Part shown: positions 134 through 19,376 of the stretch, piece by piece | Position numbering within the stretch: position 1 is the first letter of the stretch | Layout of the letters: every line of letters begins with the position of its first letter | Virus record (IMG/VR): IMGVR_UViG_3300017743_000122 | Location: 1 to 23,942 of that record | Length of the DNA stretch: 23,942 nucleotides | Strand: one strand, 5' to 3' | Source: a virus | The notes under the pieces: model-generated | What the model was told of the DNA's origin: nothing | The model's database searches: none | What the model saw: only the letters and a program-made list of their open reading frames with translations | Translations under genes and position numbers: made by a program

Positions 134-496
134 TCAGAAACCGTACTTCAGTCCAAGCTTTGAGCCCCAGCTGAAGTCGTCGCCAGAAACGCCGCTGAGT
201 TCTCCGTAAACAGAAACGCTTTCAGCAACCGCAACCGAGCCGCCAAATTTACCGGCAAACTCAACTTCGCTATCCACGCCATTAGGCGTGAGAATAACTG
301 GACCGCCCTGGATAAAATACGAATAAGCGCCTTCGCCGCCTTCGTAGCCAACGTCAAGGTTTAGCGAACCACCAAGGTAGTTGTCACCAACAGTTGTGCC
401 GTTGAACTCAGGATTCAGGTAAGGACCAGCGAGGGCAGACGCTGGTGCCAATGCAACTGCCGTAGCGGCTGCAGAAATCACAAAAGACTTGATCAT
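134..496 (-). CDS. Secreted small beta-barrel-like (porin-like) protein, phage accessory gene
   Basis: This 120-residue protein starts with a canonical signal peptide: MIKS, a hydrophobic core, then a PASALA cleavage motif before GPYLNPEF. The mature part, about 97 residues, alternates polar and hydrophobic residues in short strands rich in Gly, Tyr and Val (for example GYEGGEGAYSYFIQGGP) and ends in KLGLKYGF. A terminal aromatic after a short strand is typical of outer-membrane barrel proteins. From memory it resembles small secreted proteins common in marine cyanophages; no function is established that I can cite. An in-frame ATG at 529 would add 11 residues; I prefer 496 because it gives the compact signal peptide, though neither start has a clear ribosome site. 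It follows the tail module, has its own terminator and looks like a separate accessory gene acting on the host envelope or the particle. Confidence 0.75.
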   Translation of the reverse strand: MIKSFVISAAATAVALAPASALAGPYLNPEFNGTTVGDNYLGGSLNLDVGYEGGEGAYSYFIQGGPVILTPNGVDSEVEFAGKFGGSVAVAESVSVYGELSGVSGDDFSWGSKLGLKYGF

Positions 497-567
497 TGTT
501 GAGGGAGTCAACGTTTTCTGTAGGTACATTAACCGGGGCAGTCAATGGACAGTTGCCAATCTGATCC

Positions 568-4903: not shown

Positions 4904-5791
4904 CTAATCTTCAATCTCTAGCTTACCGCTCCCAGGCTGCTCAAGCAGGATCCGGTCAGTGTCTTCTTTCAGCACATAGTTGGTGATCACGCCAATCCCA
5001 AGCTTGGGTAAAATTGGCCCAGTGGTAACAAAGTTAAAATTAGACAGAGTTAATTGCCCCGAGCCAAGGCTAATTGCAGCATTTGTCACAATGCCTTTAA
5101 ATTCAAAGTAAAAGAAGTCATTTACTGCTTCTGCGTTTTGCCCTCTGTCAACTATATAAAGCTCAGCGTCAAACTCAGAGCCAAGCTTTTGACGCAAAAT
5201 TAACTCATGGAGGTAGCTAGGAACATCAGTGTCTACAGTTTCTCCCGCAGCATCAGGATCATAATGAAACTCGCAACTGATGCTCCCGTTTCCACTGATC
5301 AAGCCACTTTCGTTTTTCCTAAACTCGTCGCTAAGGACAGTTACATCTACAACGTCTCTATCATTGTTTAGCTCAAAAGATGTTACTAGCCCTAAAACAT
5401 TATATTCGGCCTGAACACTAGTCACTTCAATAGGAATGGCCGTTGTAATCGCAGCCAAAGTAATCTTGCCCGTGCTTTGACCGTTCAATGCATTAGCAAA
5501 AGTGTCGTAAAGGCAAACACCACCTAGCTCGTCAACATAGATATACCAAGTGCCGTCAGGCAATTGACTGCCGCCGTCCCATCCAGAGCCGTCAATAAAA
5601 GCAAGGTTTGCACCGTTAGTGCTTTTAATCTGCAGCCGATCACCCGTCAGCAACATTTCCTGCGGAAAGTCAAAGCTAAACCGCTTTTTTGCAGCGTTGA
5701 CATCGCCAGGATCTACCAAGCTGGTGAACGTGCGCCCTGGAGTCGCTCTTCGCAGCCTAATTCTTCCGTTATTGCCTAGAAAAACCGTCAT
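4904..5791 (-). CDS. Tail protein with a tail-tube-like C-terminal domain
   Basis: This is a 295-residue protein. Residues 1-125 form an N-terminal domain rich in Gly and short strands (LRRATPGRTFTSLVDPGDV, then a TWYIYVDELGGVCLYD segment). Residues about 130-275 align by eye along their length with the 134-residue product of the gene immediately upstream: both carry V..(W/F)...N..D...(E/D)VT.LS(E/D)..R.....G...G.G.(L/I).....YD, and both end in a (F)...(V)L/VT.A.(I/L)...G pattern closing with a T/SG motif. That pattern is typical of tail-tube-fold proteins. The start overlaps the upstream stop by ATGA. It probably belongs to the distal tail, for example as a fiber adaptor or tip ring. The exact role is inference. 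Confidence 0.7.
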   Translation of the reverse strand: MTVFLGNNGRIRLRRATPGRTFTSLVDPGDVNAAKKRFSFDFPQEMLLTGDRLQIKSTNGANLAFIDGSGWDGGSQLPDGTWYIYVDELGGVCLYDTFANALNGQSTGKITLAAITTAIPIEVTSVQAEYNVLGLVTSFELNNDRDVVDVTVLSDEFRKNESGLISGNGSISCEFHYDPDAAGETVDTDVPSYLHELILRQKLGSEFDAELYIVDRGQNAEAVNDFFYFEFKGIVTNAAISLGSGQLTLSNFNFVTTGPILPKLGIGVITNYVLKEDTDRILLEQPGSGKLEIED

Positions 5792-6192
5792 AGCGATTTA
5801 CTAACGAAATCACCGCTCATTATGTAGTTGACATTGACGCGCATCACTTCACCAACAACACACGACAGATCGGCGCTAGTTAGCACCGCATCAAACTCCA
5901 AAAAATTGTCGTCAAACTTAAGCTTGAGCCTTGTAGTCGCAGTGATTGAGGGGTTTGCGTTCGTGTCTTGGTTGACTTGGTTGAGCAACTTGACCGGTGC
6001 GTCGTCGTAATACAGAACCGTCAACGCTCCAGAAGCAGTGCGGATGCCAGTCGTAAACGCTCGAACGTCTTCGCTTAGCGTCGTCACCTCAAGCGCGTCG
6101 GTGTTAGCGGTCATTGACCACTGCACAACCTTGGCAACGGTTTGACCCGCAAGCTCGACGGAGCCATCTTGACCCGCGTAATACTTAGCCAT
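5788..6192 (-). CDS. Tail-tube-like protein (second tube-fold protein, downstream of the tip gene)
   Basis: This 134-residue protein opens MAKYYAGQDGSVELAGQTVA and continues with KVVQWSMTANTDALEVTTL, a profile close to phage major tail tube proteins: a Gly-turn-strand, then W(S).....(L)E.TTL, then F.TGI..ASG. The main tube gene of this phage is elsewhere (14484-15416) and is more than twice as long. This second copy lies between a small tail protein and its own larger paralogue, after the J-like gene, where lambda carries no tube gene. It may form a distal ring or attach the fiber. Family call from pattern only. Translation is coupled to the next gene by an ATGA overlap. Confidence 0.7.
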   Translation of the reverse strand: MAKYYAGQDGSVELAGQTVAKVVQWSMTANTDALEVTTLSEDVRAFTTGIRTASGALTVLYYDDAPVKLLNQVNQDTNANPSITATTRLKLKFDDNFLEFDAVLTSADLSCVVGEVMRVNVNYIMSGDFVSKSL

Positions 6193-6194
6193 GG

Positions 6195-6596
6195 TCAGGC
6201 ACCCTCTAGCTCGCCAATGAACTCACACGTCACTGTACTCAGTCCTGGCTTAACGCATTGAACTGATGGCGGCGATGCGTATTTCCACTTCAACAAGCTG
6301 TTCGTTTCTCTAATCCAAGGTATCAACGCCTCAGACGCACCAGCAGCAACGTTGCTAACGGTGAACTCTGCATAGTTGTCGTCGTCCATCACGTCTACAT
6401 AGTTCTGCAAAATCAATGCAGCTTTTTCGTCCGTGATGTTTGCAAACGTTAGGGAGAGGCTGCTGCTATATCGCTGGTTGCCGTAACGCACCCGGACAAC
6501 AGCACCATTTTGCGCCTGAAACTGCTGCTCAGGGAAAACACCAGGCGCGTAGGACCGGCTAGTTGGAACTAACGCTGGGAAGCTAACTGCAGTCAT
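6195..6596 (-). CDS. Small tail protein of unknown function
   Basis: This is a 133-residue protein, MTAVSFPALVPTSRSYAPGV at its N-terminus, with a central LSLTFANITDEKAALILQNY helix-turn segment and a C-terminal (V)QCVKPGLSTVTCEFIGELEG strand pair. The start overlaps the stop of the J-like gene by ATGA, and the next gene follows 2 bases after its stop codon, so it is part of the tail-tip cluster. The NITDE.A..IL..Y segment is familiar from phage tail proteins, but I cannot name the family with confidence. A minor tail or adaptor role is inferred from position. Confidence 0.65.
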   Translation of the reverse strand: MTAVSFPALVPTSRSYAPGVFPEQQFQAQNGAVVRVRYGNQRYSSSLSLTFANITDEKAALILQNYVDVMDDDNYAEFTVSNVAAGASEALIPWIRETNSLLKWKYASPPSVQCVKPGLSTVTCEFIGELEGA

Positions 6597-11271: not shown

Positions 11272-11735
11272 GCGTTGCTGATGCGTGCCGTAACAGGCAA
11301 AGCTCCAACGTCCTGAGAACGCAGCACCTTGTTTGGGATAGACGACGTAACTGCGTCGATTGCTGTGCTCAGAGTTAGCTGCACTCCTTCAACGTTGTAG
11401 TTGAAGCTAGAGGCAATCCAGTATTCAGTCGTCAGCGTTCGATCAGGCAAAAACGTATCAGGGTGCATTAGCACCGTTTCAACCTGAACAGACCAGAACT
11501 GAGTAGCAGCCTCGTGAATTATTTCCCTTGTTAGCACGTTTGAGGCAAACGTCAGAGTGCTTTCGAGGTTGTCGCCAGAAAGGCTTTTTGTAGCGCCGTT
11601 ATAAACAAACGGCAAAAACTCATAGCTTTTTGAGCTAAAGCTTATGGGGCTTGCAGTGTTGCTGTTTTGAAAAGTGCCCTTCTCAGCTGAGCCGTCTTGA
11701 AAAAAAATAAACGTCGTTATCGCTTCGATCGTCAT
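11268..11735 (-). CDS. L-like minor tail protein
   Basis: This is a 155-residue protein directly after the tape measure and before the K-like gene, the place of lambda L. Residues about 50-140 alternate strands: SLSGDNLESTLTFASN, EIIHEAATQFWSVQVETVLM, then VEGVQLTLSTAIDAVTSSIPN. The last segment, with (L)...AIDAV....P...LRS.(D)VGALP, resembles the middle of gpL family proteins. Lambda L carries a further Cys-rich C-terminal domain that binds an iron-sulfur cluster. Here the protein ends soon after the LP motif and has no cysteine, so that domain is absent. Both ends overlap neighbours by ATGA. It should link the tail tube to the tip hub. Confidence 0.6.
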   Translation of the reverse strand: MTIEAITTFIFFQDGSAEKGTFQNSNTASPISFSSKSYEFLPFVYNGATKSLSGDNLESTLTFASNVLTREIIHEAATQFWSVQVETVLMHPDTFLPDRTLTTEYWIASSFNYNVEGVQLTLSTAIDAVTSSIPNKVLRSQDVGALPVTARISNA

Positions 11736-13783
11736 ACGCCAATCCTGCTACGAACACTGCGCTTGTTCACAAGGTCACTGTAAACACCACGTTTGCCCAT
11801 TTCAGCGCCACGCTTAGCAGCCTGAGCCATTCCCTTCTCAAACTCAGCAGCGGTAACGTAATTAATGTTGTTGATCCGCTCAACGCTGTAGTTAACGTCA
11901 AGAACTGCATTGCTAGCTGAACCGTCACCTTCAGCTTCTTGACCGCCTGTCATTAAGGACGCAGCTGAGTTGCCTGAGCCTCTTGAATAACGCGACATTG
12001 CTTCCCTTGCAGTGTCTTGGCTTGCAACCTCTACGCCAAGACGACCGCCACGACCTCTTTTTAAAGGCATAATCGCTTCAGGGCCTGCCTCTCCCATCAC
12101 TCCCATGCCGTTAGCCATGGGGAAAACAGTTGGTTTGTTTACGACGCCGCCATAAGCAAACGGAACAACGTTGTTGTGTGCAAAAACGTTGCCCTTGGCA
12201 CTAAACAAAGCTCCCAGCAACCCAGTGCCTTTTTCTCCTCCAACACCAAAGCTGCCAATACCAGCCCTAAGAAATAGGCTTCCAATCTGCTTCAAAACGC
12301 CTGACAAGGACTCGCCTAAAGACTTTGTGCCATCGATCAAGCCCATGATTGCGTTGGTCAAACCTGTTGCAACAGTATCTTTAACTGAGTTAAAAAGAGC
12401 ATCAAGTTTTTCAGTATTTGTATTTAGATTTTTTGTTTTATCAATTGTATCTTGCAATGCTGCATTGCCTCGTATGCGTTGTTCAACGCCTGCCGCAATC
12501 ACTGGAGGTAATCCTCTTGTCTTTTCTTCAACCTTCATTTCTAACGCAACTTCTTTCTCTTTGCCTAGAATTTTCGCTTCAAGCAAACGCCTTTCATCTT
12601 CTAAGCCTTGCAACATTTTTGCAAAACTTGCAGTCTGCTTAAGAGTTATATCTACGCCTTTACTTAAAGCGGAATTGCGTTTCTTTATAGCTTGTTCTTC
12701 CGTTGAGTCTTGGTCTCCGCCAGGCTTTAGAGGCAGATCAATGGTTTGTAGTGGGTTGAATGGCTTATTAGTGTCAACAGGCGCGTCCACGCGGCCTATC
12801 AACATATCCATTATTTGCTTGTTAAATCCATACCTTTCGGCACCACCTGTAAAAATGTCCTTAGTAGCTTCAAAGGCACCACTAAAATCCTCCATTGCAA
12901 GAGACCCAAGAATCCTTGCAAGGTTCCCCGTTTGAATAACAATCTCAGTAATCCCCATCGCAGTTGCAGCGATAGAAACAGCAGTCCCTTTAATAACAAT
13001 ATCTAACGCCTGAAACATTCCAGTCATGTCATTTTCAGAGCTGAGCATTTCAGAAAACGCCAGAATGATTGAGTTAAGCGTTGGCAGCAGAAAATCAGCT
13101 AGCTGTTTCCTAAACCCGTCAAACTGAATCGCAAGAATTGAAATTTGATCATTGAAAAACTCAGCGTTTTTTGCAAAGTTCTCGCTTGTCTCATAGTTAA
13201 ATTTCCCGAGCGCCTCAGTACCGCCGTTCAATAACGTGATTAACTTTGACCCAGAACGGCCAAAAATGTCCATTGCAACAGCTGCTTTTTCAGGCCCGTT
13301 TGGCAAATCCTCAAACTTGTCTGCGATCTCACCCAGCAGCTGGTCAGAAGGCTTCAGGCTGCCATCTGCTTTTTTGACGCTTACGCCAAGCTTTGCATAA
13401 GCATCTGCATACGTTGCAACCCCGTCAGCAGCCTCAGCCTGTGTACGCGCCAAGGTGCGCAGGCCGGTCTCAAGATCGCTCTGACTTACATCAGCCAACT
13501 TGCCTGCGTTTGCATACGCCTGGAGCTTGCTTGCAGCAATGCCAGTTCTGGTGCTGAGCTTCCCAAAGGCATCTGCAGAATCAATAGCGCCCGTAACAAG
13601 GCGGCTAAAACCAGCAATAGCAGCAGCAGCAAACAACGCCTTGAATGCTGTACCAACCCCTTTAACCGCATTGGCAAGGTTTTTGGCCTTGCCCTGCACT
13701 CCCTGCATGGAGTTTCCAAGGCGTTTTATATCGTTTGCACCAGTCGTTTTGGCGCTGATCAGCATCCCAAACTTGGCAGTCAT
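11732..13783 (-). CDS. Tail tape measure protein
   Basis: This is a 683-residue, mostly helical protein and the longest between the chaperones and the tip. The N-terminal half has Ala-rich heptad-like helices (KNLANAVKGVGTAFKALFAA) and a TRTGIAASKLQAYANAG segment typical of tape measures. Around residue 260-300 there is a hydrophobic stretch (GTAVSIAATAMGITEIVI). The C-terminus holds the conserved motif FAYGGVVNKPTVFPMANGMG followed by VMGEAGPEAIMPLKRG, found at the end of many lambda H-type tape measures. Taking about 0.15 nm per residue, the general rule for such proteins, it predicts a tail of roughly 100 nm. The start lies 1 base after the stop of the chaperone frame, so it is translated with it. 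It sets tail length and may help DNA entry. Confidence 0.9.
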   Translation of the reverse strand: MTAKFGMLISAKTTGANDIKRLGNSMQGVQGKAKNLANAVKGVGTAFKALFAAAAIAGFSRLVTGAIDSADAFGKLSTRTGIAASKLQAYANAGKLADVSQSDLETGLRTLARTQAEAADGVATYADAYAKLGVSVKKADGSLKPSDQLLGEIADKFEDLPNGPEKAAVAMDIFGRSGSKLITLLNGGTEALGKFNYETSENFAKNAEFFNDQISILAIQFDGFRKQLADFLLPTLNSIILAFSEMLSSENDMTGMFQALDIVIKGTAVSIAATAMGITEIVIQTGNLARILGSLAMEDFSGAFEATKDIFTGGAERYGFNKQIMDMLIGRVDAPVDTNKPFNPLQTIDLPLKPGGDQDSTEEQAIKKRNSALSKGVDITLKQTASFAKMLQGLEDERRLLEAKILGKEKEVALEMKVEEKTRGLPPVIAAGVEQRIRGNAALQDTIDKTKNLNTNTEKLDALFNSVKDTVATGLTNAIMGLIDGTKSLGESLSGVLKQIGSLFLRAGIGSFGVGGEKGTGLLGALFSAKGNVFAHNNVVPFAYGGVVNKPTVFPMANGMGVMGEAGPEAIMPLKRGRGGRLGVEVASQDTAREAMSRYSRGSGNSAASLMTGGQEAEGDGSASNAVLDVNYSVERINNINYVTAAEFEKGMAQAAKRGAEMGKRGVYSDLVNKRSVRSRIGV

Positions 13784-13784
13784 A

Positions 13785-14108
13785 TCACTTGCTCTCCTTG
13801 TTCAAAATTTTCATGGCCGCCGCTTCCATGATTTGCAAGTCCTCTAGCACGGCTGGCGCATCCTTGACTTTATACAGTCTAAACAGCCATTGCACAGCTG
13901 TATAGTCCAGCCCGCAAACGCCAGACATTGTTGTGCGCCACTGGGTTTGGCAACGCAAGAACATTTCAACAGCGGGCCAATTTTCCTCCCATACTTCAAA
14001 GTGCTCCTCTTTTGCTTCAGGCAGCACCAAGCCAAACGCCTTGGCGTCTGCCTTTAACTGGCTTTGGTCTCCTGGACCGCTGAACAGATACTCAACGGCC
14101 TCGCTTAG
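13785..14108 (-). CDS. Frameshift-extension frame of the tail assembly chaperone (GT-type, DUF1799-like)
   Basis: The reading frame is open from the slippery site at 14108 to the stop at 13785, 107 residues, beginning LSEAVEYLFSGPGDQSQ. Its C-terminal half (FLRCQTQWRTTMSGVCGLDY, then TAVQWLFRLY) resembles the DUF1799 family found before tape measure genes. No good ATG opens the frame; the first candidate is a TTG at 14030, in the middle of a predicted domain, and it has no ribosome site. The frame is therefore most simply read as the T half of a G-GT pair, made by a -1 shift from the upstream frame, giving a fusion of about 221 residues. In lambda the GT protein recruits the tape measure; the same is expected here because the tape measure follows at once. 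Confidence 0.8.
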   Translation of the reverse strand, partial: LSEAVEYLFSGPGDQSQLKADAKAFGLVLPEAKEEHFEVWEENWPAVEMFLRCQTQWRTTMSGVCGLDYTAVQWLFRLYKVKDAPAVLEDLQIMEAAAMKILNKESK

Positions 14109-14114
14109 TTTTTT
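14075..14114 (-). promoter_or_regulatory. Programmed -1 ribosomal frameshift signal (A AAA AAC plus hairpin)
   Basis: The heptamer A-AAA-AAC (14114-14108) is in the zero frame, with AAC the last sense codon and TAA directly after. Seven bases downstream, GGCCGTTGA (14100-14092) pairs with TCAGCGGTC (14083-14075) to make a 9-bp stem with two G-U pairs and an 8-base loop. Slipping back one base enters the downstream frame exactly. All parts of a canonical bacterial -1 element are present at standard spacing. Confidence 0.88.
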
Positions 14115-14449
14115 CTCTTGGCTCCCTGCTTGCTCTCTAGATAAGCCCCAGCGATTGCCGTTGCCATCATCGGCACATCTAATAGCTCGTCTCGCTTTGT
14201 GATGCTGTACGGCAAATCCTTACCGTCCTCATCCTCGATACCAATCCACCCCATCATGACCTCACGGGCAATCTCTACGTCCGTCAAGTTGCCTTCTGAA
14301 CTCAGCTCCGCAATCTCCAAAAGTCTGCTCTGCGTCAAGTCTTTAAACTCAACATCAAAAGTGACCCGTTCGTGTTTGCCCCCATCAACAGGAACATCCA
14401 CAGAAACAGGCCACTTGTAAGTATTTGACTTCTTGAGGACGAATGCCAT
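14105..14449 (-). CDS. Tail assembly chaperone, G-type
   Basis: This is a 114-residue protein placed between the tail tube and tape measure genes. The sequence (FVLKKSNTYKWPVSVDVPVD, then VTFDVEFKDLTQSRLLEIAE) is the usual layout of these chaperones: a two-strand start with K..(F)W.V.V, then a (F)..EFK.L... helix. The helical C-terminal part (VEIAREVMMGWIGIEDEDGK, then YSITKRDELLDVP) is also typical. It ends KRKN at a slippery A-AAA-AAC, so a fraction of ribosomes extends it in the -1 frame. The chaperone coats the tape measure while the tube polymerises and is normally absent from the virion. The ATG is preceded directly by a run of six T that belongs to a hairpin-T element, and there is no clear Shine-Dalgarno site. 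Confidence 0.85.
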   Translation of the reverse strand: MAFVLKKSNTYKWPVSVDVPVDGGKHERVTFDVEFKDLTQSRLLEIAELSSEGNLTDVEIAREVMMGWIGIEDEDGKDLPYSITKRDELLDVPMMATAIAGAYLESKQGAKRKN

Positions 14450-14483: not shown

Positions 14484-15416
14484 TTAAGTACAAACAATGC
14501 TGTACTCATTGTTCCCTGCAGTTGTTGGCGTTGCGTTGTAGGGCAAGTTCAACATTTGAATGCCGTCAGAATCTGAATAGGTTGGTGAACCTAGGTCAGT
14601 CTGTGGGGCACTGAAAGTGACAATGTTGCCGGCTGATTGACCATGCTGGAACGTGTTTGTTCCGGTGCTGGTGCCGGTGGCATCAGTGAAGAAGTTATGA
14701 GTGGCGAGCAATTCAGCCTCAAGCACGATCGTGCCATTAGGCCGGCGATCAGTAATCAAGACCTCTTTAGTTCCACCAACCAATTCGCGGTAAACAGTCG
14801 TATTGGACTGATCAAAACTGAAGGACTGCAACGAACCTGCGTAGCTGAACAAGGTAAAGCTTGTGGTGTTGCCGTTCTTGAAAATGACCGGGGCAGCTTG
14901 GTTTGCGTAAGTCGTGCTTGGATTTGCTGTGTCAGTTGGCGCGTTAAACAATCCCGTCATCGTGAAATTAATCACAGGGATCTGTCCCACTTCGCCTGTG
15001 ATTGCAAAGCTGCCACGACAGCCAGTCAGCTTGTGACGAACTCCATCGACAAAATACTCAAGTGTGCAACTTTCAAATGATGCGCTGATTGGCGCATAAG
15101 TAACTGAAGTGTTTGCCGCTATCGTCACCGAGTTGCCACAAGAACGGATGATTGCGTCCCATTTGGGCGCTGTGCCTGCAGCTCCAGAAGCTGCCAGCTC
15201 AACCTCAAACGAAATCTCAACCCGCTGGTTAGCAAGCAAAATGTCGTAGTTGCCCATGTAGCCACGGATCAACTCACGCTCAACAGCATCAGCTTGAAGC
15301 GGAGTAATTTCCATGTTGCGGACTAAAACCGCATCAGTGCCTGCAGCTGTTGGGTCGGACCCGTAGCTACTTTCAATCTTCGCCAGCAATAGGCGTTGAC
15401 TCGTCCTCAGTGTCAT
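14484..15416 (-). CDS. Major tail tube protein
   Basis: This is a 310-residue protein. The N-terminus (RTSQRLLLAKIESSYGSDPT, then AVLVRNMEITPLQADAVERE) is characteristic of a widespread siphovirus tail tube family, with the L(L/I)AK.E..YG.DPT signature and a following V.N.E..P motif. The middle is beta-rich (VEISFEVELAASGAAGTAPK; a RHKLTGCRGSFAITGEVGQI strand pair), followed by F.MTGLF. The C-terminal third (TTVYRELVGGTKEVLITDRR, then PNGTIVLEAELL) continues the pattern. It should polymerise into the tube around the tape measure. The start overlaps the preceding small gene by 44 bases. A hairpin and U-run follow its stop codon, as after the capsid gene. Confidence 0.85.
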   Translation of the reverse strand: MTLRTSQRLLLAKIESSYGSDPTAAGTDAVLVRNMEITPLQADAVERELIRGYMGNYDILLANQRVEISFEVELAASGAAGTAPKWDAIIRSCGNSVTIAANTSVTYAPISASFESCTLEYFVDGVRHKLTGCRGSFAITGEVGQIPVINFTMTGLFNAPTDTANPSTTYANQAAPVIFKNGNTTSFTLFSYAGSLQSFSFDQSNTTVYRELVGGTKEVLITDRRPNGTIVLEAELLATHNFFTDATGTSTGTNTFQHGQSAGNIVTFSAPQTDLGSPTYSDSDGIQMLNLPYNATPTTAGNNEYSIVCT

Positions 15417-16847: not shown

Positions 16848-19376
16848 TCAAGCGGTGGTGATGTCTTCAATTGAAGCAAAAGCAGAACTTTGTCTGATCG
16901 CAACATCAAACGAGATGATGCCACGGACAGATGTCAGTGCCTTGCTGAAGTCATCAGAGTCAGTGCCAATTGTGATTTCCAAGCCGTTGCCGTAGAAACC
17001 AATCATGGCCTGGCTGAAGTCACCAGCAACCAATGCAGAACAAACGTTAGAAGCAGAACCTTTCGTCAAGTTAGAAGGAACAGCGTTGGTCATTGCCAAG
17101 GGATAACCGTTAAGGGTCAAAGGCGTTGGGCCACGACCGATAGCGGAAAGATCCGAGTTGTAAAGGAAAGCACCGTCACCAGCAGCTGAACCACCTGCGC
17201 GGAGTTTCTTTAATCCGCCAATCACCTTGCCGTTGGTGATATAGGCCATGTTGGGGCCAAAGGCGTTGTCCTCAGTGATGGCAGTTTCCAGATCAACCAC
17301 TTTCTCAAGGGTCAATGCACCACCGTTGGTGCCCATCGCAACGGATCCAATACCGGAAGTGTTGCGGATGCCTGTTGGCTGACCAGAGGAACCAGAACCG
17401 TTGAGGACTGCAGCATCAACAGCGTTGTTGATTCCGTCAGTCAAATCACGGCGTACAAGCTCTTCGATGCCAGGTGTGCCCTGAAGCAAGGTCTGACGGC
17501 TGTACTTGGAAAGAGCCGCAAGGTTCTTGGGGCTCATCGTGATCTGGTCGAAAGTAGATTCCGACTGGGTGATCGCGGTTGTCTCAGAAGACAGGTAGTA
17601 GGTGCTGGAAACACCGGAGCGGCGAGGGATTGCAACATCACCAACCAATCCGGTCAGGGTGCGAACTCCCAGGCCAACTACAGGTGAAGAATTACGCAGA
17701 GCTTCGATGAAGTCATCAGCCAGCAGATCGGTTGCAACAAGGTTGCCGCCTGTGTTAGCCGAACTCGTGACGTAAGTCGCGCGTTGTGACAGCGCAGAGA
17801 AAGGAACAAAGAAGGAACGCTCACTCGTGGCAGCAATGCCAGAGCTGCGCTGAACTTCTTGGCTCAGTTCACGGCAAAGACCAGCGCCATGCGATGACCA
17901 ATCACCAGTGATCAAAGCGCGAACGCCATCGATCAGCTGATAACGCTCTTGGGTCTGCTGACCAAGGTCAACAGGAGCAACACTTTCGACAGGCTTAGCG
18001 CCAATTTTTTCAAGAACAGCTGCACGGGCAACATCGATGCTGCTGCCGTTATCAATCAGCTGCTCAGCAAGGTCACGCATTTCGTGCTTGCCGCAAAGCT
18101 CTTGGATGTTTTTGATGCGGGTACGCTCTGACGAGGCAGCCTTTTTGGAAGCCTCATCGCGCACCACGTTGAGATCGGGTGCTGTGGACATTTGATTCTC
18201 AGAATCGGGTTGTGTGAGTGGTGCGACGCGAGCCGCAGAATCAACCTCAGAGGCTGTTTCTTTGTCCATTGTAGTGTCTGAAAGCAAAGATCTCCCCACG
18301 CCAATGTTTGGATCAGCGGGGACACTTACAACGCTGATTTCGTAGGGCTCCCAGGAAGTTGCCACAAATTCGTTGTTGCGCTCTTCCATCTCTTTGATTC
18401 GATAACCAAAGGAGATATTGCGCATAATTCCGTCTTTAACGTCCGCTAAAATTTCTTGCGCAAAAGAGTTGCGGCTAAAGCGAACACGGCTAACTCCTTT
18501 CTTTTTGTCGTCGTCAAGGTAGGCACGCTCAACAACACCGATCGGACGATCCATATCGTGATTGAACAAAAGCGGTGCGCCGTCGTTCAATCTGCTCAAA
18601 TCTGCAGCGTCTTTGTCATGGCTCAGGACCTCTGAACCAAAGGAACGCTCAACCGGATATTCAGAGCTAAAGCTGAACTCCATCACCCGGTCTTCTTGCT
18701 CCTCAAACTGAGTTTCCCCAGCACGCTTCAGCAATGCAGTGGCAGAACGCAATGCAGAGATTTTGGTCAGCGTTGAGAACCGATGACCGGCCTTCACGTC
18801 TGTCGCCTCAAAGCCTTCGTCTGTTTCGCGATAAACAGTGATTAACGCTGCAGGGTCATCCTCATCACCATTAATAGTGAACTCAGAACCAGGCACATTG
18901 ATTGAGCCATCACGCTCAATCCGGTCAATCTTGCCTCTGGCAGTGCCACCAGAACTGTCCCATTGGACAAAATCACCAACACTTAGGCCGTCAGGCTCTG
19001 CCCTCTTTGCAAGATCCTCAGACATTGGTAATTCACGAATATCTTTAATTCTATCCGCCTTCCCCGTTGACCACACCTGGCCCGCGTCTCCACCCCATGC
19101 AGCCCAGGCCACGCGACCGTTGGACGGGTAGCCGTCTTCTCCAGGCGAAAAACCTTCGCCTTGCTTGTCAACTTCATGGCGGGCAAACCATGCCGACATT
19201 GCAATCACAACATCACCGGATAATTCGTTGCCGCTCAGAATCTGAGTCGCACGCCGTGCCGCAACTTCTGTGCCACCCGATTTACCTTCAGACTTCCATT
19301 CGCGATAACGGTCAGCCTCGGCTTTCATGCCCTTAGTAGGCATTAAATCGATCTCTGTGCCGTTAATAGTTGCCAC
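16848..19376 (-). CDS. Prohead protease - scaffold - major capsid polyprotein with two N-terminal accessory domains
   Basis: This is an 842-residue protein with five segments. Residues about 10-110 (MKAEADRYREWKSEGKSGGT, then MSAWFARHEVDKQGEGFSPG) form a domain I know from other phage head proteins but cannot name. Residues about 131-185 (LSVGDFVQWDSSGGTARGKI, then DPAALITVYRETDEG) resemble the TUDOR-like domain of hypervirulence-associated proteins. Residues about 210-365 are an S78 prohead protease: His273 in LLFNHD and Ser322 in NISFGY, 49 residues apart as in HK97, plus Glu346 in YEISVVSVPA. Residues about 385-500 are helical, like the HK97 delta scaffold. Residues about 520-842 are the HK97-fold capsid protein. 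The start is GTG, 14 bases inside the portal gene; GGGGAAG lies about 6 bases upstream. Self-cleavage should release a mature capsid of about 300 residues. Confidence 0.88.
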   Translation of the reverse strand: MATINGTEIDLMPTKGMKAEADRYREWKSEGKSGGTEVAARRATQILSGNELSGDVVIAMSAWFARHEVDKQGEGFSPGEDGYPSNGRVAWAAWGGDAGQVWSTGKADRIKDIRELPMSEDLAKRAEPDGLSVGDFVQWDSSGGTARGKIDRIERDGSINVPGSEFTINGDEDDPAALITVYRETDEGFEATDVKAGHRFSTLTKISALRSATALLKRAGETQFEEQEDRVMEFSFSSEYPVERSFGSEVLSHDKDAADLSRLNDGAPLLFNHDMDRPIGVVERAYLDDDKKKGVSRVRFSRNSFAQEILADVKDGIMRNISFGYRIKEMEERNNEFVATSWEPYEISVVSVPADPNIGVGRSLLSDTTMDKETASEVDSAARVAPLTQPDSENQMSTAPDLNVVRDEASKKAASSERTRIKNIQELCGKHEMRDLAEQLIDNGSSIDVARAAVLEKIGAKPVESVAPVDLGQQTQERYQLIDGVRALITGDWSSHGAGLCRELSQEVQRSSGIAATSERSFFVPFSALSQRATYVTSSANTGGNLVATDLLADDFIEALRNSSPVVGLGVRTLTGLVGDVAIPRRSGVSSTYYLSSETTAITQSESTFDQITMSPKNLAALSKYSRQTLLQGTPGIEELVRRDLTDGINNAVDAAVLNGSGSSGQPTGIRNTSGIGSVAMGTNGGALTLEKVVDLETAITEDNAFGPNMAYITNGKVIGGLKKLRAGGSAAGDGAFLYNSDLSAIGRGPTPLTLNGYPLAMTNAVPSNLTKGSASNVCSALVAGDFSQAMIGFYGNGLEITIGTDSDDFSKALTSVRGIISFDVAIRQSSAFASIEDITTA

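Follow-up and report, generated by a model that had tools for sequence, protein, structure and literature searches.

Background

Production of two tail chaperones, G and GT, from overlapping frames by a -1 ribosomal frameshift is a strategy known from phages. The G gene of lambda ends 15 nt beyond its slippery heptamer, and lambda is reported to require the two products at a ratio of about 30:1 (PMC5009743), while two frameshifts in HK97-like tail chaperone genes proceed at 6-7% in E. coli (PMC3711429). The mean distance between the slippery site and the stop codon is 26 nt in the SEA-PHAGES set and 36 nt in the phages of Xu et al. (PRFect paper, PMC10274946). Among phages whose T part belongs to the DUF1799 family, the junction has been recorded as a frameshift by the depositors of RcapMu, Solomon and KLB22.

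Here we describe the corresponding element in a 23,942-base virus record, the whole of which we call the window. With a probability of roughly 95% we regard the element as a signal for programmed -1 ribosomal frameshifting, as in lambda G/GT, that belongs to a siphovirus tail chaperone pair; as far as the sequence can tell, all three parts of the signal are in place.

Anatomy of the junction

The whole element and both reading frames, G and T, lie on the minus strand, a point left unstated in an earlier note on this DNA. The features are, in the direction of transcription:

14484 to 15416, minus strand: gene of the major tail (tube) protein, directly upstream (PF18906 Phage_tube_2, E 2e-19)
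14105 to 14449, minus strand: G frame, open reading frame of a tail assembly chaperone of 114 residues, C-terminus KRKN followed by TAA
14122 to 14127, minus strand: AGGGAG, Shine-Dalgarno-like stimulator 7 nt 5' of the heptamer, identified by Gly codon bias and anti-Shine-Dalgarno pairing
14108 to 14114, minus strand: slippery heptamer A_AAA_AAC in the zero frame, read from the sequence
14105 to 14107, minus strand: TAA stop of G, with a gap of 0 to the heptamer
14075 to 14100, minus strand: hairpin from RNA folding, 7 nt 3' of the heptamer (arms 14100-14091 and 14084-14075, loop 14090-14085)
13785 to 14108, minus strand: T frame (-1), DUF1799, 107 codons accessible only through the shift, then a stop
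14028 to 14030, minus strand: TTG, the earliest codon at which T could start, 77 nt beyond the stop of G
11732 to 13783, minus strand: next gene downstream, tail tape measure protein (best match among PHROG tape measure families at E 6.7e-44)

The zero frame of G ends in AAG AGA AAA AAC TAA, with the heptamer immediately before the stop as the earlier note had described it. The -1 frame is open from stop to stop over 13785-14219 and continues for 107 codons beyond the stop of G, and the predicted GT fusion comprises 114 + 107 = 221 residues; these spans agree with the lengths given before. The 9-bp hairpin that had been placed seven bases further on was likewise recovered by RNA folding, as nine pairs with an additional terminal G-U.

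Taken from this one sequence, the case for a frameshift signal is moderate and suggestive, because slippery heptamers as such are no rarity and the hairpin alone is unremarkable: in-frame X_XXY_YYZ heptamers occur 29 times in the 7695 codons of the genes in the window, three of them being AAAAAAC, and equal or better folding is reached in 8% of 45-nt segments, which makes the hairpin by itself ordinary. The A_AAA_AAC at 14108-14114 is the sole case among the 29 in which a stop codon abuts the heptamer. It is the comparison with related sequences that is decisive.

Identity of the proteins and source of the window

The gene order is tail tube - G - T - tape measure. T matches DUF1799 (PF08809, E 1.2e-18, 67.6 bits, above the cut-off of 26), in line with its first description as a DUF1799-like segment, and phrog_680 (E 2.6e-32). 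G matches phrog_569 (E 2e-16) and, at E 0.0021 and 18.7 bits, under the curated cut-off of 21.1, Phage_TAC_4 (PF08748). The AlphaFold model of G (pLDDT 82) resembles annotated phage tape measure chaperones in fold (E <1e-3), and it also matches the entry of a 236-residue tape measure chaperone from Serratia phage Scapp (E 1.3e-3). The model of T is of low confidence (pLDDT 64) and a fold search with it was uninformative; its first predicted helix begins at the junction. Searches of solved structures with G and T gave no credible match.

PHROGs calls both phrog_569 (G) and phrog_680 (T) 'tail length tape measure protein', a label that the G and T frames also carry in several RefSeq phage records, and the G of S-LBS1 is labelled as an ABC transporter ATPase.

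Elsewhere in the window, an 842-residue open reading frame (16848-19376, minus strand) joins a prohead protease (Peptidase_S78), a Hva1_TUDOR domain and a HK97-type major capsid protein. A weak second tail-tube-like match (5788-6192, minus strand; PF18906, E 2.5e-4) lies well away from the main tail tube gene, next to a match to a minor tail protein (6195-6596). Positions 134-529 (minus strand) encode a cyanophage outer-membrane-protein-like beta-barrel domain (PF24653, E 1.1e-34). This domain, together with the relatives S-CBS1, S-CBS3 and S-LBS1, indicates a cyanobacterial host, and the source, a marine phage, is probably a cyanophage.

Selection on the signal in environmental relatives

Two scans of IMG/VR yielded 155 loci, and 104 unique G genes were used for codon statistics. 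In every locus that matches both frames (down to 47% identity in G), AAAAAAC is followed directly by the stop and T lies at -1. The window is a metagenomic contig, in which a false indel might split a continuous gene, but the same arrangement in every one of these two-frame relatives, and in complete cultured phage genomes as well, refutes an assembly or sequencing error and leaves it practically no probability.

The identity of the stop varies by clade: TAA is used in the clade of the window, TAG in the next and TGA in the third. The last three codons of G yield the heptamer in all 104 unique G genes, while in the remainder of these genes A is the wobble base of 12% of Arg codons, AAA encodes 34% of Lys and AAC 64% of Asn. 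Loss of the heptamer in close relatives, which the earlier note had named as an observation that would speak against a frameshift, was consequently not found.

The upstream element is constrained in the same way. The Gly codon that supplies AGGGAG is GGA in 100/104 unique G genes, compared to 68 of the 867 Gly codons (8%) elsewhere, and a codon so constrained marks the Shine-Dalgarno-like element as being under selection, as expected of a dnaX-like signal. Among 25 diverse phages the energy of anti-Shine-Dalgarno pairing peaks at the offset of AGGGAG; in some cultured relatives, e.g. CUB19 and phiES15, the element is absent or weak. Its spacing of 7 nt is slightly below the 8-11 nt quoted for Shine-Dalgarno stimulators (PMC6321510).

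The earlier note had also proposed a comparison of heptamer and hairpin across homologues for covariation, and this revealed that the pairing is maintained. Across 20 distinct sequences from the clade of the window and the TAG clade, 97% of pair cells are kept and two of the 10 hairpin pairs show changes on both sides; 22 of 500 shuffles reached the observed covariation, and slid registers of the hairpin gave a pairing of at most 50%. The TGA clade possesses a different stem in nearly the same place, for which covariation support is weaker. For the 25 diverse phages, a peak in the fold z-score is seen solely at the hairpin offset (mean -1.88 vs about -0.25 elsewhere), and values below -2 are found in 44% at this offset vs 7% elsewhere. 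Strong unrelated hairpins occupy the same offset in the distant phages S-LBS1, ZX4290 and BUCT603B1, and the hairpin is missing or weak in some cultured relatives, again including CUB19 and phiES15. A stable hairpin 5-8 nt downstream, as in dnaX, is therefore present, although two-sided changes are few and not every relative has it.

Where the T frame begins

Past the slip site, variation in each of the three clades concentrates in third codon positions of T, which indicates that T is read from the junction onward. This bears on the reading under which most GenBank records annotate the locus, i.e. that T is an independent gene whose translation begins at an internal TTG, GTG or ATG or results from reinitiation once G has terminated. 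In the window no start precedes the TTG at +77 (14030-14028), which is the one a gene caller would use, as foreseen in the earlier note; it is not conserved, lacks a Shine-Dalgarno sequence, and starting there would cut 28 of 109 T residues. The separate gene would gain some credit from the TAG clade (L023-L036 and others), in which an in-frame ATG at +53 is frequent, but this codon is absent from the clade of the window and no Shine-Dalgarno sequence stands at normal spacing before it. In the TGA clade some members have a GTG at +35 or +38.

No conserved T start with a ribosome site was found in any homologue set: the candidates shift between clades and have no consistent Shine-Dalgarno sequence, and the T starts annotated in GenBank records scatter between -19 and +200 nt, counted from the stop of G. 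The earlier judgement that T has no credible start of its own can thus be upheld, and the conserved start that would have spoken against it did not appear in the homologues. Furthermore, the K-L at the junction is invariant and the coding conservation of T sets in at the slip site, 5' of the candidate starts, and the fixed codons of the heptamer would be left unexplained. We consider a separately initiated T very unlikely.

The start of the tape measure gene downstream of T differs between loci with near-identical G and T (L009, L016 and L134 vs L002). The tape measure gene seems to have been exchanged behind a constant chaperone pair, judging from these sequences.

The zero gap in cultured phages and prophages

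We compared 26 cultured phages and 36 prophage or other viral loci, the latter obtained by searching two bacterial classes for DUF1799 and by scanning with single proteins. Alignments of diverse T proteins contain no stretch conserved enough for a profile, and single proteins served as queries, of which RC1 and PeaS-P1 gave one and three loci, respectively; a profile was used for a second look at the junctions of L277, L282, L285 and L287.

T lies at -1 relative to G in 26/26 cultured phages and the stop follows with gap 0 in 25 of them: 23 have AAAAAAC or GGGAAAC, KLB22 has AAAGGGT and Ymer the bare tetramer A_AAG, the remaining phage being ST22 with A_AAG and a gap of 3. Among the 36 loci, 35 possess an XXXAAAC or XXXAAAT heptamer (the exception, L268, could not be placed), with a gap of 0 in 28 (e.g. 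in each of L277, L282, L285, L286, L288 and L289), of 3 in four, and of 21, 27 and 96 in one each. HK639-like loci have AAAAAAC with gap 0 throughout. Cultured phages and prophages whose T is as little as 23-40% identical still have an X_XXA_AAC at the junction, and in several of them GGGAAAC stands in for AAAAAAC.

These variants are informative with regard to transcriptional slippage, in which the polymerase would slip on the A run at the junction and produce mRNAs with joined frames, a device used by some bacterial genes (PMC5009743). The run comprises only six A, and homologues with GGGAAAC, AAAGGGT or bare A_AAG retain the capacity for ribosomal re-pairing but not a run on which a polymerase would slip. 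The uniform -1 direction in the 26 cultured phages and the spaced hairpin and Shine-Dalgarno-like element likewise suit ribosomes, and transcriptional slippage has in our opinion hardly any probability.

Given that gap 0 is widespread here, compared to 15 nt in lambda and published means of 26 and 36 nt, the zero gap appears to be a mark of the DUF1799 chaperone family. We found no published description of a zero-gap stop in tail chaperones, which is weak evidence as the subscription literature was outside the scope of the search. An adjacent stop forces a leucine codon (CTA or CTG) after the junction, and selection on this leucine could contribute to the adjacency of the stop; the gap-3 members L173 and L265 retain the leucine (as CTC) without an adjacent stop.

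Proposed mechanism and implications

From the anatomy and conservation of the junction we infer ribosomal slippage, its rate and the function of the products in tail assembly. The majority of ribosomes would read G and terminate at the abutting TAA, releasing the 114-residue chaperone, whereas a minority would slip by -1 on A_AAA_AAC and continue through the 107 codons of T to give the 221-residue GT fusion. Slippage would be aided by pairing of AGGGAG with 16S rRNA and by the hairpin 7 nt downstream. If lambda is a guide, the tape measure protein may be coated by many G and few GT molecules, with the T part recruiting the tail tube protein. Points against this frameshift are the lower shiftiness of A_AAA_AAC in E. 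coli compared to A_AAA_AAG (PMC5009743), the sub-threshold match of G to Phage_TAC_4, the cultured relatives in which hairpin and Shine-Dalgarno-like element are weak or missing, and the small number of two-sided pair changes.

The role of the abutting stop can have two explanations. On the one hand, it may be a working part of the signal: the slip, or commitment to it, would occur while AAC occupies the P site and the stop codon the A site, and the G:GT ratio would be set by competition between the release factor and leucyl-tRNA for the -1 codon CTA or CTG. Competition between release factors and slippage at a stop directly behind the slippery site has been shown for bacteria as well as human cells (PMC4373837), and a -1 slip at an A-site UGA is reported from an E. 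coli system (PMC6321510). A working stop would account for gap 0 across hosts and stop types, would bring the Shine-Dalgarno spacing of 7 nt plus one codon to 10, as in dnaX, and would mean that the phage reads the termination capacity of its host when fixing its tail chaperone ratio. We regard this explanation as possible but tentative, and rather doubtful than probable. The plainer alternative is that the abutting stop merely ends G cleanly.

Independently of the role of the stop, the frameshift reading provides a clean and fully legible signal in an abundant group of environmental phages and would explain the misannotation of the second chaperone gene in many records. The rule for the family (a heptamer and then the stop, a Shine-Dalgarno-like element upstream and often a hairpin) offers annotators a simple test for the T frame. 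Likewise, the TAA, TAG and TGA versions of one signal form a natural series on termination vs -1 slippage in bacteria.

Comparison with known systems

The element shares with lambda G/GT the gene order, with overlapping frames between the tube and tape measure genes, the -1 direction, a zero-frame slippery heptamer close to the end of G, and a T without conserved start that would be made as a fusion. The term 'canonical', used for the element in the earlier note, is apt with regard to this lambda-type -1 signal, but it overlooks the Shine-Dalgarno-like stimulator and the abutting stop: lambda has GGGAAAG with the stop 15 nt further on, in contrast to AAAAAAC and gap 0 here, where moreover an upstream Shine-Dalgarno-like element and a hairpin are present and T belongs to the DUF1799 family.

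Closer in this last respect are the DUF1799 'tape measure chaperone' pairs of Drexlerviridae and related phages (Solomon, KLB22, HK639) and of RcapMu, in which T is homologous, and of which Solomon, HK639 and RcapMu also possess an X_XXA_AAC heptamer with adjacent stop. All these pairs, as a group, differ in that identity in T is 23-50%, that some have no strong hairpin or Shine-Dalgarno element, and that KLB22 uses AAAGGGT.

E. coli dnaX follows the same three-part plan of AGGGAG, an A6 heptamer and a downstream hairpin. Its heptamer is however AAAAAAG, its Shine-Dalgarno element is 10 nt upstream instead of 7, and its shifted frame gives a short product. Finally, a stop directly 3' of the heptamer, as found here, is known from Rous sarcoma virus, barley yellow dwarf virus and a stop-substituted HIV-1 site; these are either RNA viruses that use eukaryotic ribosomes or reporters made by engineering, whereas here the arrangement characterizes a phage gene family.
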